Source: Gemmiger sp. An194
Lineage (GTDB): Bacteria > Bacillota > Clostridia > Oscillospirales > Ruminococcaceae
Direction: 5' to 3'
Length of the DNA stretch: 64,000 nucleotides
Assembly: GCF_002160145.1 (NCBI RefSeq)
Contig: NZ_NFKA01000004.1
Span: 1-64,000, forward strand
Position numbers and translations under genes: made by a program. Every line of letters begins with the position of its first letter. The first letter of the stretch is position 1. Shown here piece after piece: positions 2,766 through 21,831 of this stretch. A model generated the notes under the pieces. That model was not told the origin of the DNA and did not search any database. It was given only the letters and a program-made list of their open reading frames with translations.

Positions 2766-4031
2766 TCAGGCAGCATTGCCCTTCGCCTTTACGGCATTTA
2801 CCAGCCAATCCTTGCCCTCGACCATACGAGCCACCATCATGGAAGCGATGGTGTCGCCGGAGGCGTTCAGGCAGGTAGCGGCAGGGTCAAACAGGAAGCC
2901 CAAAGTAGCAATCAGGGGGAAGGCCTCAGCGGGGAAGCCGAACATGCTTACGATGAGCATTTCACCCACCAGGCCGCCGCCGGGCGCGCCGGACAGAACA
3001 AAAGCGGACAAAATAGCAACCACAATGGCCATGGCATAGGTGCTCGCGCCGGTAAAGGGCATATTGAACACGCCGAAGAGGAAGGCGATCTTGGTGATGG
3101 AGCTCAGCACCGAGCCGTCCATGTGCATGGTGCAGCCCATGGGCAGAACCAGGTCACTCACATCCTTGGGAACGCCGATTTTATCGCAGGTTTCCTTGTT
3201 GACGGGCAGGGTGGCGGCGGAGCTCTGGGTGGCAAAGGCGGTCACAGCGGGGGTGAAGATATACTTCAGCATCCGTTTCACACCCAGTGCACCACCGGCG
3301 AACAGTGCATACAAGGGGAAGAAAACAACCACATACAGCAGGCACAGGGGGTAATATACTGCCATGGATCGGCCGTAGTCGCCAATGATTTCAGGACCGT
3401 ATTCGGCTACCAGATTGGCAAAGTAAGCACCCAGACCAATGGGGGCAATGTTCATAATAAGACCAACGAATTTCATGATGATGTCGTTCAGGTTGGCCAG
3501 CAGCTTGCCCACAGGGCTCTCATCACCGCCGCAGGCGGAAACGCAGAAGCCGAACAGAATGGCAAAAATGATCAGCGGCAGCATGTTGCTCTTGCTCAGC
3601 AGGCCGGAGAAATCATCCACGGTAAGAGAGCCGACGATCATGTCGCTCACACTCTGCATTTCGCCCATTTCACTGGTGCCTATCTGGATATTGGTTCCGG
3701 CAGAGGGGCTGAACAGATTGACCCATACCAGCACGCAGACGCCTGCAATGATGCCGGTGGCAAGAAAGCTGAAAATGGTGCTGCCCAGAATCTTGCCCAG
3801 GCGTTTCATATTGGCCATGCTGCCCACAGCGGAAGCGATGGACACAAACACCAGAGGCACAACGATGGTGAACATCAGGTTCAGGAAGATCTGCCCCACG
3901 GGCTTGAGGGTCTGCCCAAGGCTGGGGGAGACCACACCGATGATGGAGCCGATAGCAATGCCGCCCAGCAGCAGGATGGGAAGCTTGTACTGCTGCCACA
4001 AGGACGATTTCTTGGTGGTAGTGTTAGACAT
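2766..4031 (-). CDS. Dicarboxylate/amino acid:cation symporter (DAACS family)
   Basis: A 421-residue integral membrane protein of the sodium/proton-coupled glutamate-aspartate-serine symporter fold (SDF family). N-terminal hydrophobic helices (about residues 14-100) are followed by the serine-rich re-entrant motif TQSSAATLPVN and the substrate-binding region ending NASGDTIASMMVARM. Its length is normal for bacterial GltP/SstT relatives. It is the second gene of a minus-strand operon, 52 bases after the C-S lyase gene, so a sulfur-containing or C3/C4 amino acid is a reasonable substrate. Sequence alone cannot say which. A GGAGAG ribosome site precedes ATG 4031. Confidence 0.9.
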   Translation of the reverse strand: MSNTTTKKSSLWQQYKLPILLLGGIAIGSIIGVVSPSLGQTLKPVGQIFLNLMFTIVVPLVFVSIASAVGSMANMKRLGKILGSTIFSFLATGIIAGVCVLVWVNLFSPSAGTNIQIGTSEMGEMQSVSDMIVGSLTVDDFSGLLSKSNMLPLIIFAILFGFCVSACGGDESPVGKLLANLNDIIMKFVGLIMNIAPIGLGAYFANLVAEYGPEIIGDYGRSMAVYYPLCLLYVVVFFPLYALFAGGALGVKRMLKYIFTPAVTAFATQSSAATLPVNKETCDKIGVPKDVSDLVLPMGCTMHMDGSVLSSITKIAFLFGVFNMPFTGASTYAMAIVVAILSAFVLSGAPGGGLVGEMLIVSMFGFPAEAFPLIATLGFLFDPAATCLNASGDTIASMMVARMVEGKDWLVNAVKAKGNAA

Positions 4032-4083
4032 GATGACTCTCCTTTTCCTTTATCGCTCCGTCCGCACGAGACGGTATTCCTGT

Positions 4084-5253
4084 TTATAATGCTTTCACAG
4101 CCTCTTCCAGCTGTTTCATGGCCTGTTCCAGAACCTTGCGGGAGCAGGCGGCGTTCAGACGCATGAATCCGTTCAGGCTGCGCCCGAAGCTCCATCCCTC
4201 GTTCAGGCCAAGCCCGGCCTTTTCGATCATGAAACGGCGCAGCTCCTCATTGCTCAAGCCCAGCTCCCGGCAGTCCAGCCAGACCAGATAGGTGGCATCC
4301 GGCAGGTTGGGCTTGATTTGGGGAATATGAGCGGCGCAGTAATCCCGGATGAAGTTGAAGTTGCCGTCGATGTATTCCAGCAGCTGATCCAGCCACTCCT
4401 CACCCTCGTTGAAGGCGGCTTCCATAGCGGTCAGGCTGAAGGCGTTGTTGCGGTGGATATCCATGTTCATCCAGGCTTTGTCATACAGTTCCTTCATCCG
4501 CATATTGGGGAAGACGGTGGTGGAAGCCTGCAGGCCTGCCAGATTGAAGGTTTTGGTACCGGAAATGCAGCTGATTACTTCGCCGGCAACCTGCTCAGAC
4601 AGGCTGGCGGTGGGGATATGGGTTTTGCCGTGGAACACCAGATCCGAGTGGATCTCGTCCGAAACCATCAGCACACCGTATTTTCGGCACAGGTCAGTCA
4701 TGCGGGTCAGCTCCTCGCGCGTCCACACGATGCCCAGAGGATTGTGAGGGCTGCACAGCAGGAACATGCTCACCTGGGGCAGCTTGGCTTCAAAGTCCTC
4801 CCAGTCCACGGTCCACTTGCCATCCTTTTCCACCAGTTGGTTCTCAACCACAGTGCGGTTCCAGGCTTCGGTCACGTCGTAGAACTCGCCGTAAACCGGG
4901 GTCTGGATCAACACCTTGCTGCCTTCCGGAGTGAACAGCTTCACCAGCATGCTCAGCGCGGGCACAACGCCCAGGCTCCAGCTCACCAGGCTGCGGTCGA
5001 TGGTCCAGCCGTTGCGGCGCTTCTGCCAGTTGCAGATGGCCTCAAAGTAGCTGGCCGGGCGGCTGGTGTAGCCCCAGATGCCCTCCTGTGCCCGGGCAGT
5101 CAGCGCATCGATCACCGGCTGGGGGGCTTTGAAGTCCATGTCCGCGATCCACAGAGGAATCACCTTGTCAGTGCCGAACTTCTTAATCCGCTCGTCGTAC
5201 TTGGCGGCATTGTTTTTGCTGCGGTCCACAACGGTGTCAAAATCGTATTTCAT
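4084..5253 (-). CDS. PLP-dependent C-S lyase / aminotransferase, MalY/PatB family
   Basis: 389 residues from MKYDFDTVVDR, the usual start of this family. ATG 5253 is preferred over an in-frame start 13 codons upstream because an AGGCAGGA ribosome site lies just before it. Fold-type I PLP enzyme: the Schiff-base lysine is in SGTKTFNLAGL, the pyridine-binding Asp is in VSDEIHSDL, and the C-terminal arginine region is FMRLNAACSRKVLEQA. MalY/PatB proteins act as cystathionine or cysteine beta-lyases, giving pyruvate (through 2-aminoacrylate), ammonia and a thiol or sulfide. The gene heads an operon with the symporter and is preceded by a canonical sigma-54 promoter, which supports a sulfur amino acid catabolic role. 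Confidence 0.88.
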   Translation of the reverse strand: MKYDFDTVVDRSKNNAAKYDERIKKFGTDKVIPLWIADMDFKAPQPVIDALTARAQEGIWGYTSRPASYFEAICNWQKRRNGWTIDRSLVSWSLGVVPALSMLVKLFTPEGSKVLIQTPVYGEFYDVTEAWNRTVVENQLVEKDGKWTVDWEDFEAKLPQVSMFLLCSPHNPLGIVWTREELTRMTDLCRKYGVLMVSDEIHSDLVFHGKTHIPTASLSEQVAGEVISCISGTKTFNLAGLQASTTVFPNMRMKELYDKAWMNMDIHRNNAFSLTAMEAAFNEGEEWLDQLLEYIDGNFNFIRDYCAAHIPQIKPNLPDATYLVWLDCRELGLSNEELRRFMIEKAGLGLNEGWSFGRSLNGFMRLNAACSRKVLEQAMKQLEEAVKAL

Positions 5254-5311
5254 AAAATCGGTTCCTGCCTTTCTGTTTGGGCGCTTGCCCACGTTTCTCT
5301 GCCCAGATTAT

Positions 5312-5328
5312 AGCAAAGAGTGTGCCAA
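5312..5328 (-). promoter_or_regulatory. Sigma-54 (-24/-12) promoter of the C-S lyase-symporter operon
   Basis: Read on the minus strand: TTGGCAC, then ACTCT, then TTGCT. The invariant GG and GC are 10 bases apart, the canonical spacing, and every consensus base of TGGCAC-N5-TTGCW is present. The start point would be near 5301, about 48 bases before the lyase ATG at 5253. Confidence 0.9.
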
Positions 5329-5365
5329 AAGCGAAGAGGTGGGTGACGTTACCATCCATTTCGGC

Positions 5366-5380
5366 GTTTTAACGGTTTTG
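5366..5380 (+). promoter_or_regulatory. Putative activator box A (upstream activating sequence)
   Basis: GTTTTAACGGTTTTG lies about 40-55 bases upstream of the -24 element of the lyase promoter. The same motif recurs at 5513-5527 (inverted) and 7739-7754. Its restriction to the flanks of the sigma-54 regulator gene and its two target promoters suggests it is that regulator's binding site. Confidence 0.65.
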
Positions 5381-5440
5381 ATTGTTTGCGTTGCAGCAGA
5401 TTGACGGTAAAATCTGGATGTAGTCAATTGCATGGAAAAA

Positions 5441-5487
5441 GAAAAACAGGCCGGTCCGCAGAAGAAAGCACGCGGTACCGGCCTGTT
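5441..5487 (-). terminator. Terminator of the sigma-54 regulator gene
   Basis: AACAGGCCGGT (5445-5455) pairs with ACCGGCCTGTT (5477-5487). On the minus strand TTTTTC and further T-rich bases follow. It separates the regulator transcript from the C-S lyase operon. The rest of the 5254-5573 gap holds the sigma-54 promoter and two operator-like boxes, with no gene. Confidence 0.85.
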
Positions 5488-5512
5488 CCTTATATATAAG
5501 GAAATCGACGAT

Positions 5513-5527
5513 CAAAAACGGTTAACC
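5513..5527 (-). promoter_or_regulatory. Putative activator box B
   Basis: CAAAAACGGTTAACC on the plus strand; its complement GGTTAACCGTTTTTG matches boxes A and C. It is about 190 bases upstream of the lyase -24 element, within the usual range for enhancer-like sites, and just past the 3' end of the regulator gene. Confidence 0.6.
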
Positions 5528-5573
5528 AATAAATGAAAATGGTTGATTTCGGATGAACTACAGGTTAAATTGG

Positions 5574-7685
5574 TCATAACTGGTTGTCTGTGGTATGGGC
5601 GGTCAACAGCTGAAGTCCCTCTTCGGTCAGGTGACTGCCACCGCGCCCCCGCTCAATGCGCAGATAACCCAGTTGAGCCAGCTCACTCATCAGGCGGCGG
5701 ACTTGCTGCTGGGAAAGCGGACGGTGTATCTGTCGAGCGGCAGAAAGCAAACTGTCCCGCCCGGCGGAGCGGCCCTGGCGCGCGGCCTGATAAATTAATT
5801 GCAGAACCATCCACTGTTCTTCGTTCAGCTGAGGCGGGGAAGAGGACGAGTCCGGTAAAGATGTCAGAGCCGCAGCCGCTACGCTCACCGGCGGGGTGAG
5901 TCTGCCGCCAGTGCTTTCTGCAGGCAGATAGTGGAAGGTAGGCGGCAGATCCTCTGGTGTAATGACCTGGCTGCCGGTGTAGCTGAAATATTCCACCACA
6001 TTGCGCAGCTCCCGGATGTTTCCCCGCCACTGATGGGCCAGAAGCATCTGCTCCAGCTCCGGAGAAAGGGTGAATTCTACGCCACTTTTCTTTCGGAAAT
6101 ACTCGATGAGCAGCAGCAGGTCACCCTCACGCTGGCGCAGAGGTGGGATGAGGGCGGGCAGGGTGTTCAACCGGTAGTACAGGTCCCGACGGAAGCTGCC
6201 CTGCTCCACAAGCTCCTCCAGATCCTCATTGGTGGCGGCTACGATGCGCACATCTACCCGAATGATCCGGTTGCCGCCCACCGGCATGATCTCGTGCTCC
6301 TGCAGCACCCGCAGCAGCTTGCACTGCAGTGCCGGACTCATACCCTCAACCTCGTCCAGAAACAGGGTGCCCTGATGGGCAAATTCAAACAGACCGGGCT
6401 TGCCGCCCCGCCGTGCTCCGGTGAAGGCGCCGTCCTCATAACCGAAAAGTTCGCTTTCGAGCAGGTTTTCTGGCATGGCTGCACAGTTAATGGCCACAAA
6501 GGTGCCCTGGGCCCGGGGCGATGCGTTGTGTACCGCATGGGCAAACAGCTCCTTGCCGGTGCCTGTTTCGCCGATCAGCAGAACCGGCAAGGAGGTGGCC
6601 GCCATCTTTTTCAGAATCTCGATGGTGCGCCGGATCGCAGGGGACTCGCCGATTACATTTTCAAAGGTGTATTTGGCCCGGTATCCCTTGGGACTCAACT
6701 GGCTGCGCAGTTCATTCTGGCGCTGCTCTGCGTCGCTGAAGCGCTGGACTGTGGCAAAAGCGCCCAGGCAGACCCCGCCTCGCAGCACCGGGGCGACGGT
6801 TACGGTCAGGTTGGTACCGCCTGCCCGTACTACCTTGGCGGGGATTGCCTCCTTGCTCTTCAAGCATTGCTTGAAGGGGATATAGGGATACACATCACTG
6901 GCCCGGCGATGCAGCGCCAGGGCATTGCTTACCAGGGTAATTTGCTCCAGCTTTTTGTTGCAGGCAAATACCTCGCCCTTCTCGTTCACACCTACCAATC
7001 CTTCATCCAAAATGTCCATCAGAATATCGAACTGGCTTTCCAGACGGCGGCTGCGGTTGAACAGCCGGTCAAAGCTGTAGGTGTTGGTGGCCACGATCTC
7101 CTGATAATGGTGGAACCGGGGCGTTTCCAGCAGATCCTCCAGACCCAGCTTCAAAGCGGCTTCGGTCATGGTGGCGCTGGTGCAGACGCGCTGGCCGATG
7201 TCAATAATCTCCTTCGCGCCTTCCGGCACATAACGCTGCTCGCTGGGAGTGATCACATAATCATAAAGCGACATGTCCGGTTCCGGGCAGCCTGGATGAT
7301 ACAGATCAAACTGCAGCTGATTTACGCCCAGCTGGTTCAGCCGGCTCACCGCTTCGCGGCTCATCTTATCGCTCAGGTTTACGAACAGTACCCGGCTTCC
7401 GGCGGGAAGCTTCTGCAGGCGGCGCACCACATCCCACAAAAAGGTCAACTCGATCTCGGTGATTTCCGCATCCAGGGGCAGGTACTGCCGCAGATCGCTG
7501 CCCGATTCAAAGGCATCGGTGGAGGTCATATACAAATCATAGCGTCGCCTGGGCAGCTGATTCACCGATCCATCCCGCACACTGTAGACCTGAACGGTTA
7601 CCTGGTCGGCAAACAGGTCCTTTACCTGCTTGCCGTAAAACCGCCCTGCCAGCGGGTCCCAGGAAATTACAGCAATATTTTTCAT
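5574..7685 (-). CDS. Sigma-54-dependent transcriptional activator of cysteine catabolism (CdsR-like)
   Basis: 703 residues from MKNIAVISWD (AGGAGA ribosome site; an in-frame start 14 codons upstream lacks one). Order: N-terminal sensory region 1-205, PAS-like region 215-320, AAA+ domain about 340-575 with Walker A GETGTGKE (372-379), the sigma-54 contact loop GAFTGA (419-424) and Walker B LFLDEVE (441-447). The C-terminal 85 residues resemble a winged helix (QQVRRLMSELAQLGYLRIER) rather than the usual Fis-type helix-turn-helix. It is divergent from a cysteine desulfidase gene and next to a C-S lyase operon, both with sigma-54 promoters. A comparable activator-desulfidase pair (CdsR-CdsB) is known in Clostridioides difficile. 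The effector is unknown. Confidence 0.9.
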   Translation of the reverse strand: MKNIAVISWDPLAGRFYGKQVKDLFADQVTVQVYSVRDGSVNQLPRRRYDLYMTSTDAFESGSDLRQYLPLDAEITEIELTFLWDVVRRLQKLPAGSRVLFVNLSDKMSREAVSRLNQLGVNQLQFDLYHPGCPEPDMSLYDYVITPSEQRYVPEGAKEIIDIGQRVCTSATMTEAALKLGLEDLLETPRFHHYQEIVATNTYSFDRLFNRSRRLESQFDILMDILDEGLVGVNEKGEVFACNKKLEQITLVSNALALHRRASDVYPYIPFKQCLKSKEAIPAKVVRAGGTNLTVTVAPVLRGGVCLGAFATVQRFSDAEQRQNELRSQLSPKGYRAKYTFENVIGESPAIRRTIEILKKMAATSLPVLLIGETGTGKELFAHAVHNASPRAQGTFVAINCAAMPENLLESELFGYEDGAFTGARRGGKPGLFEFAHQGTLFLDEVEGMSPALQCKLLRVLQEHEIMPVGGNRIIRVDVRIVAATNEDLEELVEQGSFRRDLYYRLNTLPALIPPLRQREGDLLLLIEYFRKKSGVEFTLSPELEQMLLAHQWRGNIRELRNVVEYFSYTGSQVITPEDLPPTFHYLPAESTGGRLTPPVSVAAAALTSLPDSSSSPPQLNEEQWMVLQLIYQAARQGRSAGRDSLLSAARQIHRPLSQQQVRRLMSELAQLGYLRIERGRGGSHLTEEGLQLLTAHTTDNQL

Positions 7686-7738
7686 AAACAATTCTCCTGC
7701 AACCAGTTTTGATAACCAATAACCCAATTATAATCTCA

Positions 7739-7754
7739 GTTTTAACCGTTTTTG
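7739..7754 (+). promoter_or_regulatory. Putative activator box C, overlapping a possible regulator promoter
   Basis: GTTTTAACCGTTTTTG lies about 60 bases upstream of the -24 element of the desulfidase promoter and matches boxes A and B. On the minus strand TTGACA (7762-7767) stands 17 bases from TAAAAC (7739-7744). If that is the regulator's own promoter, bound activator would cover it, implying negative autoregulation. Confidence 0.6.
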
Positions 7755-7811
7755 TTTCTCTTGTCAAGGAAAAAAAGCCCCATAAAAATATTTCTCGGCG
7801 TACTGGTGATG

Positions 7812-7828
7812 TTGGCACAGTTCTTGCT
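7812..7828 (+). promoter_or_regulatory. Sigma-54 (-24/-12) promoter of the cysteine desulfidase gene
   Basis: TTGGCAC, then AGTTC, then TTGCT. GG and GC are 10 bases apart, a full match to TGGCAC-N5-TTGCW. The predicted start is near 7839, leaving a 60-base leader before ATG 7899. Confidence 0.92.
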
Positions 7829-7898
7829 GCAATGGAGGCAGAAGAAACAATGCCGCGCATTGCGGCAGAGCATAACAGGAAAAAGGAGAGCGAATAAC

Positions 7899-9185
7899 AT
7901 GCTTACAAAACAGGAAATGCTGGATCTTCTTCATCAGGAAGTGGTGCCCGCTCTGGGCTGCACCGAGCCGGTGTGCGTGGCGCTGGCCGCCGCGGATGCC
8001 TATCATGCCATCGGCGGGCAGATCGTATCGGTAAAGATGCAGGTAAACCCCGGTGTATATAAAAACGGTATGTCGGTGGGTATCCCCGGGTTTGACCGGG
8101 TCGGCCTGAAATATGCCGCTGCACTGGGCGCCTGTCTGGGCAATCCGGAAAAGGGTCTGCAGCTGTTGGAGGAGATCACCCCCATTGTGAGCAAGGAAGC
8201 TACCCGCCTGGTGGAGGAAAAGCAGGTGAGCGTGACCATCGCGGAAGAGGAGACCCAGCTGTATGCCCACGCCGAGATCATCACCACCCGGGGCATCGGT
8301 ATCAGTACCATCCGTAACACCCATTCCAACATTGTTTACACCAGCGCCAACAATCAGGTGCTGTTTGAAAAGGAATACACCGTAGGCGGTGAGGATGAGC
8401 TGCACGAGAAGCTGAAGACCATGACCGTGGCCCAGATTCGTGAGCTGGTGGACAGTGCCGCTGAGGAGGAGCTGGCCTTCATGATGGACGGTGCCAAGAT
8501 GAACGAGACCCTGGCGGACTACGGCCTGGAAAACCGGCTGGGCATCGGCATTGCCGACACTCTGAAGACCCAGCTGAATGGCGCCATGGGTGACAATCTG
8601 TTCAGCAACACTATGGTCCGTGTGGCCTCCAGCGCGGAGGGACGCATGTCCGGCTGCCCTTACGCAGTCATGAGCAGCGCCGGCAGCGGCAACCATGGCA
8701 TTACCGCCATCATTCCGGTCATGGAGATGGCCAAGCACCTGAACGCCAGCCAGGAAGCGACTGTAAAGGCACTGGCCTTTTCACATATGCTGAACGTTTA
8801 CATCAAGCTGTTCACCGGCAAGCTCAGCGCCACCTGTGGCTGCGGCGTGTCGGCTGCGGCTGCTTCCGCCGCCGCTATGGTCTGGCTGATGGGCGGCAAC
8901 GATGCCCAGATGGGCGCTGCCATCATCAACATGAGCGGCAACCTGACCGGTATGATCTGTGACGGCGGTAAGATCGGCTGCGCGCTGAAGCTGGCTACCG
9001 CATCCAACGCGGCCCTCATGAGCGCCTATCTGGCCATGGGCGGCGTTGTGGTCAGCGCCAGCGACGGCATTTGCGACACCACCCCGGAAAAGGCCATCCG
9101 CAACATGGGCCGTATCAGCAACCCCGGCATGACCGCTACCGACAAAACCATCCTGGACATCATGATGGAAAAGGACCGGAGTTAA
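7899..9185 (+). CDS. cyuA: L-cysteine desulfidase, CyuA/CdsB family (UPF0597, serine dehydratase alpha-like)
   Basis: 428 residues; ATG 7899 has GGAGAG at 7885-7890. The family uses an oxygen-sensitive [4Fe-4S] cluster to convert cysteine to pyruvate, ammonia and sulfide. Conserved blocks are [13 protein letters not shown] near the N-terminus, [30 protein letters not shown] and [18 protein letters not shown], which carry the family cysteines. Transcription from a perfect sigma-54 promoter with an activator box upstream, next to the activator gene, indicates induction by a sensed amino acid signal. Upstream frame 7752-7898 is open but contains the promoter, so it is not part of the protein. 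Confidence 0.92.
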
Positions 9186-14664: not shown

Positions 14665-15048
14665 TCAGAATCCCAGGCAGTCCGGGCATTCGGCCCACAG
14701 GCGGGGCAGAATGGCGGCCAGATTGGAGAATTCCTTGATGTTATGGGCAAACAGGCCCTGGGGCACAATCTCGGGCAGACGCACGCCCTCCGGCAGAATC
14801 TTTTTGTAAACGCCGTCGATCAGCGCGTAGCCGATCCAGAACCGGGAGCAGAACATTACGCCATCCTTGTAGGGGTACCACTTGTGGGTCATGGCGGCGG
14901 CGCAGTTGCCCTCGCCGATGGCGCACACCAGCGACTGGCACTGTTCGCTGCCCACCAGAGCCGAATCATAGCCGAAGTCCGCCGGGCTCTTGAAGCACAG
15001 CTTCAGAAATTCCGGGCCGGGGCCCACATCCTCCAGGATGTAGTGGTC
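14665..15048 (-). pseudogene. C-terminal remnant of a DAPG/phloretin hydrolase-like gene
   Basis: About 127 codons survive, reading DHYILEDVGPGPEFLKLCFKSP at the broken end and FWIGYALIDGVYKKILPEGV then HNIKEFSNLAAILPRLWAE near the end. These blocks match my memory of the PhlG-like hydrolases that cut C-C bonds between a phloroglucinol ring and an acyl group (DAPG hydrolase, phloretin hydrolase). The N-terminal half is missing. Upstream the frame runs without its own start into the coding start of a different gene, so this is the downstream part of a deletion. Confidence 0.7.
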
Positions 15049-15137
15049 ACGTTCAGGTAGGGCGCTGCCACCGCCCAGATGGGCGGCAGCAGCGCGATGC
15101 AGAATGCAAGGGTCAGAGTTTGTGCTTTGTTATGCAT
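15003..15137 (-). pseudogene. N-terminal remnant of a small membrane protein gene, fused out of frame to the hydrolase remnant
   Basis: With a GGAGAGGG ribosome site, ATG 15137 opens MHNKAQTLTLAFCIALLPPI WAVAAPYLNV, a hydrophobic first helix. After about 30 codons the frame enters hydrolase DNA out of phase and stops at TGA 15003-15005 (44 residues). The junction is near 15046-15050, where the membrane reading frame loses sense and the hydrolase frame begins to make sense. It starts 15 bases after the flavoprotein stop, so it was the next gene in the operon. Confidence 0.65.
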
Positions 15138-15152
15138 GCCGGCCCTCTCCGG

Positions 15153-17891
15153 TTACTGGCAGTCGGCAATGTACTGAGCAGCACTTTCGCCCGCCATACG
15201 GCCGGTGTTCACCGCGAAGCCCATGGAGTTGCCGGGCAGGGTGAAGTTGTAGCTGTCGCCGTAGATGGTGTTGGCATCGGAACCGGCGCTGTACAGGCCC
15301 TCGATGGGCATATGGTTCTTATCCAGAACCTCGCAGTACCGGTTGATGCGCACGCCGCCCACGGTGCCGTAGGCGCCCAGGTAGTATTTACCCACCAGGT
15401 ACTTACCCTTTCCGGTGATGGGGTGCAGGTACTTTTGGGACTTGTGGAACTTGCTGTCCATGCCGCAGCGGCACATGGCGTTGTACTCGTCGATGGTGTT
15501 CTGCAGCACGTCCGGGTCAATGCCCAGCTTCTCGGCCAGCTCGGGCACAGTGGAAGCCTCGAAGTAAGCCTCGTAGCCCTGCTCCACAGCCTGTGCGGCC
15601 TGACCCTCGAAGGCCAGGAAGGCCTCGGCGGGATGCACGATGTCCACAATGTCAGGACCGTTCTTCTTGTACTCCTTCAAAATGCCCTCATCCATGATGC
15701 AGTAGCCGTAGTTGCCGGGCTGCAGGGCCAGGGCATTGCCCGCATAGGTGGTGTTGCCCAGATCACCCTCGTTCATGAAGCGCTCGCCCAGCTGGTTCAC
15801 CATCAGGTTGGGCTGACGCAGCACGGCGTCCAGAAGGAACCAGTTCAGGTTATCGGGCAGCTGATAGATGGCTTCGATGTTGGCGCCGAACTTCTCTGCG
15901 CCCACTTCCCACATCATCTTCAGGCCGTCGCCGGTGATGCCGGGAATGCGGAAGGGGAAGTAGTCCTGGCCGATGTGCAGGCCGAATTCCTTCTCGATCA
16001 TCTCGGGGTTGTTGCCGAAGCCGCCGGTGGCCACGATCACAGCCTTGCCGCGCACCTCCAGGCCGTTGCCGTCCTTGTCCACAGCTACCGCGCCGCAGAC
16101 CTTTCCCTTTTCGGTAATCAGAGAGGTGGCAGCGGTCTCCAGCAGGATCTCACAGCCCAGCTCCTTGGCGCGCTGGGTCATGGCCCTTACCATGGCGCTG
16201 GCGGCACGGGGACCGATCACGCCGTTTTCCGGCTTGACGATGTGCCAGGTTGCTTCGGATTCCTTGAAGTAGCGGAAGGCGCCGGTGAATTCCACGCCCA
16301 TCTCCTCCAGCCATTCAATGGTGTCGGCGCTCTTGTGGAAGTAAGCCTGCACCAGATCCTCGTCCACCCGGTAGTGGGTGTATTCCATGTGCATCTGGAT
16401 GGCCTTGTCCGCGCCCAGGTTGTTGAAGGCTGCCTTCTGGATCTTGGTGTCGATGCCCAGGGGGCCCATGCCCATGTTGGCAGCGCCGCCGGTGGCGCTG
16501 GATTTCTCCAGGATTACAGTCTTCATGCCCTGCTCGCCTGCAGCGATGGCAGCGGCCAGACCGGCGGGGCCGCCGGCCACGATGACGATATCGGTTTCGA
16601 TGGTTTTCATGATATTCACCTCAACATGTTTGGGTTGGTTGACGGGAGCTGCCGGAGTCTCCACCGGGGCGGGCTGGAGCTTGGCGGGGCGGGCGAATAC
16701 CCGCTTGCGCTTGGCGGCAGGCAGAGGAGCGGCTTCGCTTTCCGCCTGTGCGGCGGGAGTTGCTCCCTTCACGGGAACAGGGGAGGAGGGCAGCTTGGGC
16801 AGGCGGCCGCTGGTGCGCTTGATGGCCTGCTGTTCGCAGACGGTCAAGCATTCGCCGCAGCGGCTGCAGTCGAAGCTGTCGATCACGGCTACCAGTCCCT
16901 CGCCGCCCTCGATGCACTGCTTGGGGCAGGCGGGCAGGCACTTGTCGCAGCCATTGCACAGCTGCGAGTCTACGTAGAACTGGGTCAGCGCCAGGCAGGC
17001 ATTGGCGGCGCATTCCTTGCGGCGTACATGAGCCTGGGTTTCGGCGGCAAAAGCATCTATTGCGCTGAGGGCAGGCAGAGCGGCCTCTTCACCCAGTGTG
17101 CAGTTGCAGGAAACGGTCATTGCCCGGCCGATCTCCTCTGCCAGATCCAGATCACCGGCCTTTGCGCGGCCCAGCGAAATGCGCTCGAAAATTTCATTCA
17201 GCTGATACAGGCCCTCCCGGCAGAAGGTGCACTTGCCGCAGCTCTGGCGGCGCAGGGTGAGCATCTCCTTTTTGGCCAGGTCCACCGGGCAGTCCCGGTC
17301 GGTCATGGGACGCAGCACACCGCTGCGGCTGGAAAGGCTGGACAGCGTCATGCCCTCCAGCTGCTGGGCGGAATAGAACCGGTGATCGGCCAGCAGACCC
17401 TTGCCGGCGGGAATGATTTCAGTCAACAGGGTATCGGCGGGAAATTCAGCGGGGGTGGCATCACCCACCGCCGCGAGAAGGCCGGGCTGTGCGCCGGTCA
17501 GCCGGTCGGCCATGGCGGCCAGCCGCTCCAGATCCAAAAGCAGGTCGGTCTTGTGTAGTGCCTTGTTCACCAGTGCCGCCTGGGTGATTTCCAGCGGCAG
17601 ATCCACCGTGCCCGCGTTGGCCAGCAGGGTCTGGCGGTCCACCTCACATCGAACCACCAGCTCAGCGCCGGAGGCTCCGGTGAGCAGGGCGGCGATCTTC
17701 AAACCGGCCACCACACCGGCGGGATTGGTGTGCAGCAGCATGTTCTTCATGCCTTCGGTGTCCGCATTGTACAGTGCGCCAACCACCCGGCCGGATACCG
17801 GGGCCATGGTGCCGAACAGCTCCTCCAGCCGGGCGCGGTCGCAGCCGCGCAGTTGAACCAGAGCGTCGGTGTTGTTCATCAGCAGGCTCAT
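15153..17891 (-). CDS. NuoF-like / ferredoxin / fumarate-reductase-type flavoprotein fusion
   Basis: 912 residues in three parts. Residues 1-300 resemble the C-terminal half of NuoF: a degenerate NADE-like region (ALYNADTEG) and the [4Fe-4S] motif SCGKCTFCREG (217-227), without the GRGGAGF segment that binds FMN/NADH. Residues 305-360 carry two [4Fe-4S] sites (C312/315/318/322 and C342/345/348/352). A Pro/Ala-rich linker (365-425) leads to an FAD-binding-2 reductase domain with GGPAGLAAA near 440 and TGGFGNN. GAGGTG (16617-16622) lies 6 bases before internal ATG 16610 (MKTIETDIVIVAGG), so a separate 485-residue flavoprotein may also be made. Likely role: reduction of an unsaturated organic acceptor; substrate unknown. 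Confidence 0.85.
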   Translation of the reverse strand: MSLLMNNTDALVQLRGCDRARLEELFGTMAPVSGRVVGALYNADTEGMKNMLLHTNPAGVVAGLKIAALLTGASGAELVVRCEVDRQTLLANAGTVDLPLEITQAALVNKALHKTDLLLDLERLAAMADRLTGAQPGLLAAVGDATPAEFPADTLLTEIIPAGKGLLADHRFYSAQQLEGMTLSSLSSRSGVLRPMTDRDCPVDLAKKEMLTLRRQSCGKCTFCREGLYQLNEIFERISLGRAKAGDLDLAEEIGRAMTVSCNCTLGEEAALPALSAIDAFAAETQAHVRRKECAANACLALTQFYVDSQLCNGCDKCLPACPKQCIEGGEGLVAVIDSFDCSRCGECLTVCEQQAIKRTSGRLPKLPSSPVPVKGATPAAQAESEAAPLPAAKRKRVFARPAKLQPAPVETPAAPVNQPKHVEVNIMKTIETDIVIVAGGPAGLAAAIAAGEQGMKTVILEKSSATGGAANMGMGPLGIDTKIQKAAFNNLGADKAIQMHMEYTHYRVDEDLVQAYFHKSADTIEWLEEMGVEFTGAFRYFKESEATWHIVKPENGVIGPRAASAMVRAMTQRAKELGCEILLETAATSLITEKGKVCGAVAVDKDGNGLEVRGKAVIVATGGFGNNPEMIEKEFGLHIGQDYFPFRIPGITGDGLKMMWEVGAEKFGANIEAIYQLPDNLNWFLLDAVLRQPNLMVNQLGERFMNEGDLGNTTYAGNALALQPGNYGYCIMDEGILKEYKKNGPDIVDIVHPAEAFLAFEGQAAQAVEQGYEAYFEASTVPELAEKLGIDPDVLQNTIDEYNAMCRCGMDSKFHKSQKYLHPITGKGKYLVGKYYLGAYGTVGGVRINRYCEVLDKNHMPIEGLYSAGSDANTIYGDSYNFTLPGNSMGFAVNTGRMAGESAAQYIADCQ

Positions 17892-20017
17892 TGCTGTGCC
17901 TCCTTTCCGTTCTGATCGTAATCGCTCCAGATGCGGAGCGGGGTAATGGTGAACCGCAGGTCACACTGCAGGCAGCGGCCCGCCTCCTGGCGCACGCTGT
18001 CATCGGCCAGACCAAAGCTCACTGCGTCGAAATTGTTCTCGCGCAGCGCCGCCTCACGCACAACCTCGGGCTGGCGGGTCTGATGGCCGAAGCCCTCGAT
18101 CCGGCCCAGGAAGGCATCGGGCATCTCCACCGCAGCAAGCACCTCGGAGATATCGCCGCTGCCACCCAGCGCCTTGTCGATCTCGCTGGCGGCATCACGG
18201 CCGGCGGCAACCGCCTGAATCACGGTGCGGGTGCCGTATACCGCGTCGCCGCAGGCGTAGATGCCGGGCACGCTGGTGCGCAGGCTGCCGGGCTGCACGG
18301 CGATGGAATTGCCGCGGCCCAGCTCCAGGCCTGCCTCGGGGCTGATCTGGGTGCGCTGGCCCACCGCGAAGATCACGGTGTCGGCCTCGATCACATGCTC
18401 GGAATTTTCTTCCTTTTCAATCACCGCACGGCGGTTTTCATCAAAGGTAAAGGATTTTACATTGCAGAACCGAACGCCGGAAACCCGATCCGGGCCCAGA
18501 ATGGCCTCGAAGGTGTGGGCGGGATGAATCCGGATGCCCTCCTCCTGGGCCTGTTCGATCTCTTCCTCGTCGGCGGTCATCTTCTCACGGGCTTCCAGGC
18601 AGGCCAGGTGAATTTCCTCGGCGCCCAGGCGGCGGGCGGTGCGGGCGCAGTCGAAGGCAACGTTGCCGCCGCCCAGCACGATGACCCGCTTGCCCATGCC
18701 GGTCTCCACGCCCATGGAGGCGTCCCGCAGGAAATCGCTGTTCAGCAGTACGCCCGGCAACTCACTGCCCTCCATGGGCAGGCGAACCCCCTGATGGGTG
18801 CCCAGCGCCAGCAGTACGGCGTCATATTCCGCGGCCAGTGCCTTGAAATCGCTCACGCGGCAGCCGGTCTCCACCGAAACGCCCACGTCGTTCAAATAGG
18901 CAGCTTCCTTCGCCACTACCTCGCGGGGCAGACGATAGGAGGGAATGCCATAGGCCATCTGGCCACCCAGGGTGGGGTAGGCCTCCTTCAGGGTCACGCT
19001 ATGGTTCTGCTTCGCCAGGTAATAGGCAGCGGTCATACCGGCAGGACCACCGCCCACCACGCAGACCCGCTTGCCGGTGGCGGGCAGATGCTTGCTGTTC
19101 TTCTTCCAGAGCTCGCCGCCCGCATGTTCGGCAGCGTAGCGCTTGATGTTCCGGATGGAAACCGGCTCGTTCACCTCACCGCGGCGGCAGTTGCTCTCAC
19201 AGGGATGAGCGCATACGCGGCCCAGGCACTCGGGGAAGGGCAGCCGCTCGTGCACCACGGCCAGTGCCTCTTCCCAGCGGCCCTCCTTGGCCAGACGCAC
19301 ATAGCGGGGTACATCGATATGAGCCGGGCAGGTGGCCTGACAGGGGATCAGGGTGTCCTTTTTCTCCACAGGGGTGAACTCCACCAGATCCCGGATGGTA
19401 CCGGTGGGGCAGACCTCGGCGCAGGCACCGCAGAAGCGGCAGTCCGCGTCGGTGAGCAGCTTGTCGTGCAGGGTGCCCACATAGGTCTCCAGCTCATTTT
19501 TGTTGTACTGCAGCACACCCACGCCCCGCAGATCACCGCAGGCGCGTACACAGCGGCCGCACAGCACGCAGCGGTTCATATCGTGGATCAGCAACGGGTT
19601 TTTGCCGTTCTGGGCAAAGCCCTTGATGCGGGTGCTCATGCGGGTGGCGGAAACGCCCATGTACTGAATTAGGGTCTGCAGCTCGCACCGGCCGTATTTG
19701 GGGCAGGTGGAGCAGTCCTCCGGATGAGCGGCCAGCAGCAGCTCCATGGCCAGCTTGCGCAGGTCGTGGATACGGGGGCTGTCGGTAGTGAGCTTCATAC
19801 CCTCGGTTGCCTTCAGCTTGCAGGAGGGCTGCACGCCCTCCATGCCCTCCATGCCCTCCACCTCAACAATGCACAACCGGCAGGAGACCCGGTCCGGCAG
19901 GTCGGGGTGATGGCACAGATGGGGAATATAGATCCCGTTCTGCAGAGCGGCCTCCAGCAGATTCATGCCCTCGGGCACGGTCAGCTGTTTGCCGTCGATC
20001 TCGATCGTAACGCTCAT
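17888..20017 (-). CDS. NuoG-like ferredoxin domains fused to GltD-like NAD(P)H oxidoreductase
   Basis: 709 residues from MSVTIEIDGKQLTVPEG (AAGGAG before ATG 20017). An N-terminal [2Fe-2S] domain (CHHPDLPDRVSCRLC) and a His/Cys cluster site (HPEDCSTCPKYGRCELQ) precede two [4Fe-4S] motifs (CVLCGRCVRAC, CRFCGACAEVCPTG). A GltD-like part follows, with its own Cys-rich entry, FAD motif VVGGGPAGMTAA and NAD(P)H motif VLGGGNVAFDCARTARR. It should oxidise NAD(P)H and pass electrons to iron-sulfur centres. Stop and start overlap by 4 bases with the next gene, so the two proteins probably form one complex. A short EGM-EGM-EG repeat sits at about residue 53. Confidence 0.88.
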   Translation of the reverse strand: MSVTIEIDGKQLTVPEGMNLLEAALQNGIYIPHLCHHPDLPDRVSCRLCIVEVEGMEGMEGVQPSCKLKATEGMKLTTDSPRIHDLRKLAMELLLAAHPEDCSTCPKYGRCELQTLIQYMGVSATRMSTRIKGFAQNGKNPLLIHDMNRCVLCGRCVRACGDLRGVGVLQYNKNELETYVGTLHDKLLTDADCRFCGACAEVCPTGTIRDLVEFTPVEKKDTLIPCQATCPAHIDVPRYVRLAKEGRWEEALAVVHERLPFPECLGRVCAHPCESNCRRGEVNEPVSIRNIKRYAAEHAGGELWKKNSKHLPATGKRVCVVGGGPAGMTAAYYLAKQNHSVTLKEAYPTLGGQMAYGIPSYRLPREVVAKEAAYLNDVGVSVETGCRVSDFKALAAEYDAVLLALGTHQGVRLPMEGSELPGVLLNSDFLRDASMGVETGMGKRVIVLGGGNVAFDCARTARRLGAEEIHLACLEAREKMTADEEEIEQAQEEGIRIHPAHTFEAILGPDRVSGVRFCNVKSFTFDENRRAVIEKEENSEHVIEADTVIFAVGQRTQISPEAGLELGRGNSIAVQPGSLRTSVPGIYACGDAVYGTRTVIQAVAAGRDAASEIDKALGGSGDISEVLAAVEMPDAFLGRIEGFGHQTRQPEVVREAALRENNFDAVSFGLADDSVRQEAGRCLQCDLRFTITPLRIWSDYDQNGKEAQQ

Positions 20018-20039: not shown

Positions 20040-20987
20040 TCAGTCGATGCCCTTGAATTTCTTTTCCACGTACTTCTGCTTGCGCTGCTGTACCAGCTGG
20101 ATCTTGGCAGGATCAGAGAAGAAGCCACCCTGGGTCTGTGCGATCTCCTCCAGATGTTTGGCTCGTCCGGCTACGGTGGTGCGGTCCTTCAGCAGGCCGT
20201 CCTTCTGGATCACAAACTTCCACTTGCCGTCCTCGGTCTGCTCCAGGGTGCCGCCCGCGCCGCACACCTGGCACTCGATGGGATAGTGCAGGCCGTCCCA
20301 CTGCTTTTCGCCCAGAACCAGGGCGTTGCAGTGGCAGTTGGGGCACCAGCCCATGTCTTCCTCGCCCAGCCACTTGCGCTCCTCAGCGGGAGTGGCGGCA
20401 GCCTGCATGATGTGCTCACCCAGCAGGCGGGCGCGGGCCATCAGCTCATCGTCCAGCAGGCACTGGGCGGGAGCGGGAACGCGGGTGGCCAGAACCATGT
20501 CCACAACCTTCATGTCGGTGGTGAACATGGTGGCCTGCAGGCCCTCCAGCGCCATGGACTGCCAGGCGCGGGTGGAACCGCCCACCGAGATCAGACCGGC
20601 CACACGGTCGCGGTGCTCAATGGCGCCGATGGTCTCCAGGAAGGAGGTTTCGTAGCTCAGGCTGCGGTGAGCAAAGGTCAGGTAGGCGGAAGCGGGCATC
20701 AGGTCATAGGTGGGCACCGAAAAGATCACCGCGTCCTGGGCGAGCATCACGTCCATGATCTTCTTCTTGTCGTCCTTGGCGCCCAGGGTGCAGCCTACGT
20801 ATTTGCCCTGAGACATGGCCTTGGTGCAGGCGGTGCAGCCGGTGCAGTCCAGGATATTGAAATCACGCAGGTTGATCATGGTCACCTCAGCGCCGGCCTC
20901 CTCGCAGGCGGTGAGGGCTTCCTTCAGCAGAATTTCGCTGTTGCCGTTTTTGCGGCCGGCGGTGATTCCCATTACTTTGATACTCAT
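20040..20987 (-). CDS. Flavodoxin-fold NAD(P)H:FMN reductase with C-terminal zinc-ribbon/rubredoxin-like domain
   Basis: 315 residues from MSIKVMGITAGRKNGNSEILLKEAL, the FMN-phosphate loop of the NADPH-dependent FMN reductase family, with the iron-sulfur-flavoprotein-like cysteines DCTGCTACTKAM. The C-terminal part has two Cys pairs, CPNC and CQVC, spaced like a rubredoxin or zinc ribbon. It is the first gene of the minus-strand operon, 22 bases before the GltD-like gene, and probably shuttles electrons or supplies reduced flavin to the complex. GGAG lies upstream of ATG 20987. Confidence 0.85.
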   Translation of the reverse strand: MSIKVMGITAGRKNGNSEILLKEALTACEEAGAEVTMINLRDFNILDCTGCTACTKAMSQGKYVGCTLGAKDDKKKIMDVMLAQDAVIFSVPTYDLMPASAYLTFAHRSLSYETSFLETIGAIEHRDRVAGLISVGGSTRAWQSMALEGLQATMFTTDMKVVDMVLATRVPAPAQCLLDDELMARARLLGEHIMQAAATPAEERKWLGEEDMGWCPNCHCNALVLGEKQWDGLHYPIECQVCGAGGTLEQTEDGKWKFVIQKDGLLKDRTTVAGRAKHLEEIAQTQGGFFSDPAKIQLVQQRKQKYVEKKFKGID

Positions 20988-21204: not shown

Positions 21205-21831
21205 ATGAACAAAACGGATTTGCGCTTGGTCAAAACACTGGCACAGATCGATCAGGCGCTGCTGGAATGCCTGGAGCAAACACCTCTGCAAAAGCTCACG
21301 GTGGACCAGCTGTGCCAGCAGGCACTGATCAACCGGTCCACCTTTTACAAGTATTATCAGGATAAATACGACCTGATGGATCAGTATCTGGCCCGCACCC
21401 TGCAGGAGTTCCGCCGCCAGATGGATGTGGCCTTTGTGGAGGCCTCGTCCCAGAACATTCACAGTCTGGTGTACCAGAAGAATTTTGAGCGGGCGCTGCA
21501 ATATCTGCACAAAAACAAGGCCCGCTATACGCTTTTGTGGCGCGGGGCCATCAACCGGCCTGTTCTTACGGAAATGGTACGGGTCATCCACGACAATATT
21601 CTGGAAAAGCTGTGCTCCTGCGGGCTTGAGGGTGCACAGGAACGGTATGTGGACCTGTATGCCCAGATGTTCGCCTCCAATACCATGACGCTGGTGCGCT
21701 GGTGGTTCCAATATGAGAGTGAGATCAGCATGGAGGAAGTGCAGCAGATCATGGTGAACAACATGAAGGAGGGAATTTTCGGCGCGTTCCGCCAAACGCT
21801 GGACAATGCGCAGAAAAAGCCGAAGAAGTAA
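21205..21831 (+). CDS. TetR family transcriptional regulator
   Basis: 208 residues. The helix-turn-helix is LTVDQLCQQALINRSTFYKYYQDKYDLMDQYL (about 32-63), a close match to the TetR pattern. The ligand-binding C-terminal region is unassigned. It is divergent from the electron-transfer operon across 217 bases (20988-21204) and is probably its regulator. That gap shows A/T-rich sequence and a short ACTG-AATA-CAGT dyad, but I could not place a convincing promoter in it. Confidence 0.88.
   Translation: MNKTDLRLVKTLAQIDQALLECLEQTPLQKLTVDQLCQQALINRSTFYKYYQDKYDLMDQYLARTLQEFRRQMDVAFVEASSQNIHSLVYQKNFERALQYLHKNKARYTLLWRGAINRPVLTEMVRVIHDNILEKLCSCGLEGAQERYVDLYAQMFASNTMTLVRWWFQYESEISMEEVQQIMVNNMKEGIFGAFRQTLDNAQKKPKK

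Follow-up and report, generated by a model that had tools for sequence, protein, structure and literature searches.

We analysed a 64,000-nucleotide stretch of Gemmiger sp. An194 (contig NZ_NFKA01000004.1, positions 1 to 64,000; hereafter the window), in which a single open frame on the minus strand joins a NuoF/BfuB-like iron–sulfur (Fe-S) protein, here NF, to a flavoprotein of the fumarate reductase (FRD) type, here FP, and in which a Shine-Dalgarno (SD) sequence and an in-frame ATG persist at the junction of the two. Judging from the sequences of relatives, the frame is a fusion that went from split to fused and has a single origin on the tree. The best explanation of the whole, which we consider probable, is a cluster for a reductase that is fed by a wire and linked to reduced nicotinamide adenine dinucleotide (NADH), one gene of which yields both the fusion and the free flavoprotein.

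A fused gene with a probable start site at its junction

The fused gene and its parts lie as follows (positions are those of the window).

15153..17891, minus strand: fused gene NF::FP, 912 codons in one open frame, made up of NF (residues 1 to about 397), a formerly intergenic linker and FP (428-912)
16763..17891, minus strand: NuoF/BfuB-like part (NF), the Fe-S subunit portion of the fusion
16611..16763, minus strand: disordered linker, residues 377-427, variable, with basic motif KRKR and its last 12 nucleotides conserved
16701..16712, minus strand: KRKR, residues 394-397, which aligns with the basic C-terminal tail of unfused NuoF-like relatives
16617..16622, minus strand: retained SD sequence GAGGTG, translated as Glu-Val in the fusion
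15153..16610, minus strand: internal start and predicted free flavoprotein of 485 residues; the ATG (16610-16608) is residue 428, in frame

NF begins with a truncated stub of the domain that binds flavin mononucleotide (FMN; about residues 1-105) and continues with a stretch that aligns with the SLBB part of StnB, an NADH_4Fe-4S domain at 205-288 (PF10589, 76 bits) and two [4Fe-4S] ferredoxin motifs at about 306-357 (Fer4 matches). FP, in turn, carries a FAD_binding_2 domain at 434-881 (PF00890, 8.2e-52). In an AlphaFold2 model the predicted local distance difference test score (pLDDT) of the linker is below 50 at residues 377-423. The GAGGTG (16622-16617) and the in-frame ATG (16610-16608) stand where an earlier, sequence-only reading of the window had put them. 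Among the fusions described below, the FP half is more conserved (81-99% to the window) than the NF half (55-95%).

Origin of the fusion from separate adjacent genes

Eighteen unfused flavoproteins from 16 genomes, for which we took the start nearest the place homologous to Met428, have a start codon at that residue (17 ATG and one GTG), with a purine-rich site 5' of the start in each. These starts agree with the remark of the sequence-only reading that the ATG sits exactly where the second protein would begin. Moreover, at loci L055, L065 and L071 the order GD, NF, FP (GD being the gene adjoining the fusion, described below) is found as three separate genes, with a stop codon and a spacer of about 90 nucleotides in L055 and about 40 nucleotides in L065 between NF and FP. 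In a flavoprotein tree that takes in all 18 unfused proteins, the eight full-length fusions and a further copy at a contig end form one clade (support 100/99), which is nested among split genes and has as its sister L054 and then L055, both split. The comparison of relatives that the sequence-only reading had called for therefore finds both forms, the fusions in one clade. That reading had also spoken of two normally separate enzymes. The phrase holds in that NF and FP are separate genes in the split relatives, but it is loose, because in L055, L065 and L071 the two genes adjoin in one cluster and NF is without an FMN site of its own; as neighbours they probably serve one complex. The copy at the contig end, L052 (Gemmiger formicilis An723), is left out of the eight; its FP and junction site are at the contig end, and the contig ends (L052:1-133) with an inverted scrap of NF exactly at the junction, which is probably an assembly artefact.

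The linker preserves the earlier arrangement. Each of the seven unfused NuoF-like proteins that we examined has basic residues as its C-terminal tail (for example KFKKR, RRRR), and the fusions carry KRKR or a similar motif in the middle of the linker, aligned with those tails. Because this tail-like motif sits in mid-linker, the linker consists of the old NF tail followed by about 30 translated codons of the former spacer. On this history NF and FP were separate adjacent genes in the ancestor, the NF stop was lost in frame so that the former intergenic DNA became the bridge between them, and the Glu-Val codons ahead of Met428 are what is left of the ribosome site. At the other end of NF, the N-terminal segment is a separate frame of 80 residues in L055 (4049-5256) and is joined in L056 (13244-14446), a difference that may reflect either a frameshift or another point of fusion.

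The full-length fusion occurs in eight genomes, which between them represent two families or more, namely in the window and, with the identity to the window in brackets, in L047 (Fournierella massiliensis, 96%), L048 (Gemmiger sp. An87, 97%), L049 (81%), L050 (80%), L051 (75%), L053 (71%) and L059 (68%), the last from another family of the same order. Because eight genomes carry the same full-length frame, a frameshift or assembly artefact, the error that the sequence-only reading had itself allowed for, is ruled out. Nor does that reading's suggestion of a recent fusion survive: the single clade in the tree and the spread over eight genomes, one of them from another family, argue against it. 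The fusion is sparse among the genomes searched. At E ≤1e-100, matches were found in 3 of the 7 genomes of the genus (all fused), in at least 7 of 396 in the family (at least 6 fused), in at least 6 of 394 in the order (at least 2 fused), in at least 7 of 391 in the class (among them one fused, the window's own) and in 1 of 87 in the family of L059; the sets searched overlap, and with two to three candidates scored per genome in the wide searches the counts of the latter are lower bounds. The remaining matching genomes hold a separate flavoprotein, and one genome (G265) has both fused and unfused kinds.

Evidence for initiation at the internal site

The internal SD site looks maintained on comparison of the fusions, and initiation at Met428 is likely. 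The energy of pairing between the SD sequence and the anti-SD sequence at Met428 is -11.5 kcal/mol in six of the eight fusions, the window included, and -9.6 and -8.4 kcal/mol in the others (mean -10.9); the six values of -11.5 are the lowest among 217 in-frame internal methionines across the eight. When the 21 conserved methionine columns of the fusion are ranked by pairing, Met428 comes second, behind the true start. For comparison, the corresponding energies at the starts of the cluster's genes in the window are -11.7 (FR, its first gene), -10.7 (GD), -14.4 (the fusion) and -7.7 (a DUF1097 remnant).

The ATG and its spacing to the SD sequence are kept in all eight fusions. For counts of conservation and for resampling we used six representatives, L047 and L048 being left out because they nearly duplicate the window; any two representatives differ at 29-58% of their four-fold sites, which are therefore diverged, if not fully saturated. 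Among these six, AGGT is invariant and forms the longest invariant run of the linker, and the 12 columns that lead up to the ATG include 7 invariant ones, as against 9 of 144 elsewhere in the linker (Fisher P 2e-5, for columns that depend in part on each other and on the conservation of the amino acids). Synonymous resampling reached the observed mean SD energy in 0.7% of 3000 runs, the representatives being taken as independent. According to PMC5100845, internal SD sequences are generally depleted within coding regions. Near the ATG, RNA folding ranks within the weakest 1-9% of folding windows in each of the six genes (mean -5.0 at Met428, compared with -5.9 at the start of the fusion and -7.8 at the start of GD), and strong pairing combined with weak folding is found, among the conserved methionine columns of the fusion and GD, only at the two true starts and at Met428.

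Several observations weigh against an active start. The residues that precede Met428 are also conserved as protein (E in five, V in six and I in six of the six representatives), and part of the signal could therefore lie at the protein level. The weak folding comes mostly from amino-acid composition (P 0.045 for all six, 0.025-0.76 singly). In a control on five orthologues of GD, 2 of 13 conserved internal methionine columns pair strongly (Met328, mean -10.0; Met59, -9.7), so strong pairing alone is no proof of a start; both lie in strongly folded RNA (means -22.6 and -17.7, respectively). The sample, moreover, is one of six to eight related sequences. As to its source, the strong SD-like site at Met328 of GD is probably a chance product of the glycine-rich FAD motif.

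Taken at their strongest, these observations would describe a gene from which only the 912-residue fusion is made, the internal site being a leftover and the motif EVxIM being conserved as the lead into the first strand of FP. The AlphaFold2 model does place a strand at 427-432, V and I are the invariant residues, the weakness of the folding is largely fixed by the amino acids, and Met328 of GD suggests that similarly strong SD-like sites can be conserved before internal methionines that are not starts. However, the 18 unfused relatives begin at the same methionine without these residues, L059 has exchanged Glu for Gln and yet retains AGGT, and codon choice, as the resampling indicates, favours the SD sequence beyond what the amino acids dictate. 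We thus regard production of the fusion alone as unlikely. SD-like codons are a cause of ribosome pausing, and the stretch in question lies in a disordered linker immediately before the second domain, where it might slow ribosomes for the benefit of folding and start no translation. Against this, a pause site requires no start codon, whereas here all eight fusions retain both the ATG and its distance from the SD sequence, and the strength of the SD sequence matches that of the real starts of FR, GD and the fusion; a role in pausing alone seems to us quite improbable.

We consider it likely instead that initiation takes place internally as well and that selection kept the site, in which case one gene would supply a tethered reductase of 912 residues and a free flavoprotein of 485 residues, and dual production would probably give more flavoprotein than wire. 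The proposal of the sequence-only reading that the gene yields the free flavoprotein as well as the fusion has thus gained comparative support from the conserved ATG and AGGT core, the strong SD sequence and the weak folding, although the argument from the SD sequence is tempered by the GD control.

The NuoF-like part as a probable electron wire

Upstream of the fusion on its own strand the cluster contains two further genes, and a regulator diverges from it.

17888..20017, minus strand: GD, a NuoG/HydA-type Fe-S N-terminus with a GltD-like C-terminal module for flavin adenine dinucleotide (FAD) and NAD(P)H
20040..20987, minus strand: FR, an FMN_red-family protein, the first gene of the cluster
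21205..21831, plus strand: divergent TetR-type regulator, also beside the cluster in L048, L049, L050, L051, L053 and L054

The stop codon of GD overlaps the start of the fusion (ATGA).

In profile searches NF matches HydB, NfnB and StnB (E 1e-60 to 9e-53), the match falling on the C-terminal part of HydB/StnB. Structural alignment of the full model tested mostly FP, and hence NF was modelled separately. Residues 1-360 of this model align with residues 104-584 of StnB (8oh5: Z 22.9, 4.0 Å, 360 aligned), and the fold is likewise close to that of Caldicellulosiruptor NfnB (9bp5: Z 25.1, 4.6 Å, 358 aligned). Because these 360 residues span StnB 104-584, NF lacks about 120 residues of the FMN/NADH domain. 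The FMN motif GxGGxGFP is absent from NF, and of the domains by which BfuB is recognized the FMN/NADH-binding NuoF domain (IPR011538) is not found beyond the N-terminal stub; the NuoF-type [4Fe-4S] and C-terminal ferredoxin-type domains (IPR019575, IPR017896) are present. The SLBB domain (IPR019554) gives no Pfam match in NF, yet residues 1-360 of the model align with StnB. The sequence-only reading had the NuoF part lacking its FMN/NADH segment, which is correct for the motif and for the missing residues but overlooks the stub. The Bfu family is defined in PMC9304861 by an FMN-bearing BfuBC core, so NF is not a member; it probably derives from one. Without the core of the FMN/NADH domain, NF would therefore serve as a wire rather than as a place of bifurcation.

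GD has a GltD-like module together with NuoG-type Fe-S domains, as do StnC and NfnA. The module is nearest those of NfnABC and StnC (9bov_A, 8oh5_C, 9n5u_A; E <1e-107), with a different domain order. In all ten rows of an alignment of GD, made for ten of the loci, the YRR of NfnABC/StnC is replaced by CLE, and the Arg pair, which we take to be the NADPH 2'-phosphate site in StnC/NfnA, is thus missing. An acidic residue at this position usually favours NADH, and the CLE motif suggests that NADH is used.

According to PMC10482914, the GltD-like module of StnC hands electrons from NADPH to StnB via a chain of clusters. From homology to Stn/Nfn-type subunits, we infer that the products of FR-GD-[NF::FP] form a complex with a comparable path. 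GD would oxidise the nicotinamide (NADH or NADPH) at its FAD, the electrons would move through the clusters of GD and then through those of NF, which are of the [4Fe-4S] and ferredoxin types, until they reach the FAD of FP, and FP would reduce an activated C=C bond of an organic acceptor. On the best reading, then, the cluster would encode a soluble ene-reductase that is driven by NAD(P)H and probably linked to NADH. One observation weighs against this path: in three of the eight fusions (L049, L051 and L059) the second Cys of the first ferredoxin motif is Ser, which leaves the clusters of the assumed path incompletely conserved; one may be altered or lost.

The kinship of GD and NF with subunits of StnABC/NfnABC would also suit a complex that bifurcates in the manner of Stn and Bfu enzymes, with NF still docking a separate NuoE/FMN unit or ferredoxin. 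But NF is without the FMN motif; no NuoE/BfuC-type protein was found among the five cluster-region proteins scanned, the genome not having been searched for an unlinked one; and the NF frames of the split L054, L058, L065 and L071 are shorter still, at 180-226 residues (with starts chosen mechanically). Bifurcation therefore strikes us as very improbable indeed.

The flavoprotein part and its possible substrate

FP has the fold of fumarate and urocanate reductases (1qo8: Z 39.0, 3.8 Å, 447 aligned; 6t86: Z 38.4, 3.3 Å, 444 aligned) and the FAD-binding domain of FRD-type reductases. The Arg of G-x-R-F-x-N-E (GERFMNE), which we take to be the catalytic Arg402 of flavocytochrome c3, is kept in all 25 FP rows of an alignment, A1, that includes 17 of the 18 unfused flavoproteins (the GTG-start L061 was left out). 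Fumarate itself was rejected as substrate, since the aligned carboxylate-binding residues differ. In particular, a sequence alignment to 1d4c pairs HHTMGG with YGTVGG and sets ANRLGGN against the SYNFTLPGN region, the His and Arg concerned being those that presumably bind the fumarate carboxylates in fumarate reductase. An identity with the vinylphenol reductase VprA (NF053717) was likewise rejected (312 bits versus a cut-off of 600).

Downstream, the cluster of most fused relatives goes on to include a DUF1097 gene and a phloretin/DAPG-family hydrolase (Pfam PF18089; 231 bits in L053, cut-off 22.7). L051 has the hydrolase and no DUF1097 match, and the unfused L068 likewise has a phloretin/DAPG-family hydrolase adjoining. 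In the window both genes are remnants.

15036..15149, minus strand: DUF1097 gene remnant, longer in relatives
14668..15054, minus strand: DAPG/phloretin-hydrolase-type remnant, C-terminal half, cut by a deletion

A deletion of about 850 bp near 15047, relative to L048, joins the start of the DUF1097 gene to the last half of the hydrolase and ruins both, and the hydrolase of L047 is interrupted by a stop at codon 108. Since the window and L047 both keep an intact reductase frame, the upkeep of this frame apparently does not require the hydrolase. Elsewhere in the window's genome (G000 contig 18, 12719-13231; L073) lies another phloretin/DAPG-hydrolase match, a weak one with two internal stops.

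The neighbouring phloretin-hydrolase-type gene hints at polyphenols. In flavonoid degradation as described in PMC10470551, an enoate reductase is followed by phloretin hydrolase; by analogy, and as a guess, a chalcone-type ketone could first be reduced and then cleaved by C-C hydrolysis, in keeping with this order. A phloroglucinol pathway was considered in view of an SDR gene flanking L055 and L058 and a BKACE gene in L058, and was dropped, there being no BKACE match in the window's genome. No link was found to riboflavin degradation as presented in PMC12934955. The unfused flavoprotein of L054 has as its neighbours (3589-7968) genes for thiolase-like, ChsH2-type zinc-ribbon, acyl carrier and acetate-kinase-family proteins.

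Implications and comparison with known systems

The history of this fusion is still readable in its basic tail, translated spacer, live-looking ribosome site and second start, and in split relatives with the same gene order, and it offers a case for asking why a fusion would retain its old start site. With only slightly more belief than doubt, we propose a dual-product gene in which selection maintains the old start so that a single mRNA fixes how much flavoprotein is tethered and how much is free, its products belonging to an undescribed class of complexes, derived from Bfu but non-bifurcating and without FMN, that would carry electrons from NADH to FRD-type flavoproteins in many Clostridia. 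Such a class would point to anaerobes that reduce a bifurcating NuoF module to a wire and add a reductase to it, and would bear on the delivery of electrons from NAD(P)H to organic acceptors, perhaps phenolics of plant origin, in gut Clostridia. Among the matches listed in the open-access literature, the titles and abstract beginnings contain no description of an NF::FP fusion.

The hydrolase in the clusters of relatives shares family PF18089 with phloretin/DAPG hydrolase (5xe5, 3hwp), but it falls far below the equivalog NF047887 (67 versus 600 bits), and in the window the gene is broken. FP resembles flavocytochrome c fumarate reductase, urocanate reductase and VprA in its fold, its FAD domain and the Arg of G-x-R-F; unlike these FRD-type reductases, it is fused to a NuoF-like wire. 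The combination of a NuoF/BfuB subunit with a NuoG-type Fe-S/GltD-like FAD subunit is that of the Nfn-Bfu bifurcating transhydrogenases Stn and NfnABC, as described in PMC10482914 and PMC9304861. In contrast to those enzymes, the FMN/NADH core of BfuB is gone here, NuoE/BfuC is missing from the cluster proteins scanned, the GltD module comes after the NuoG arm and does not interrupt it, and a reductase flavoprotein is attached; unlike StnC, GD is too short to contain an FdhF-like part and has CLE in place of YRR.

Separate subunits arising from internal in-frame starts are known. Archaeal type I-B Cas11b is produced in this way (PMC11899642), although the gene studied here would encode a redox enzyme. 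The closest precedent for the logic of the gene, by analogy, is SctQ/YscQ of the injectisome, in which one gene with an internal start corresponds to two flagellar genes (FliM, FliN). There, according to PMC4295842, the internal start yields the C-terminal protein separately and both products are needed; SctQ is a structural ring protein whose internal product is proven, whereas the free flavoprotein of the present gene is predicted from sequence.

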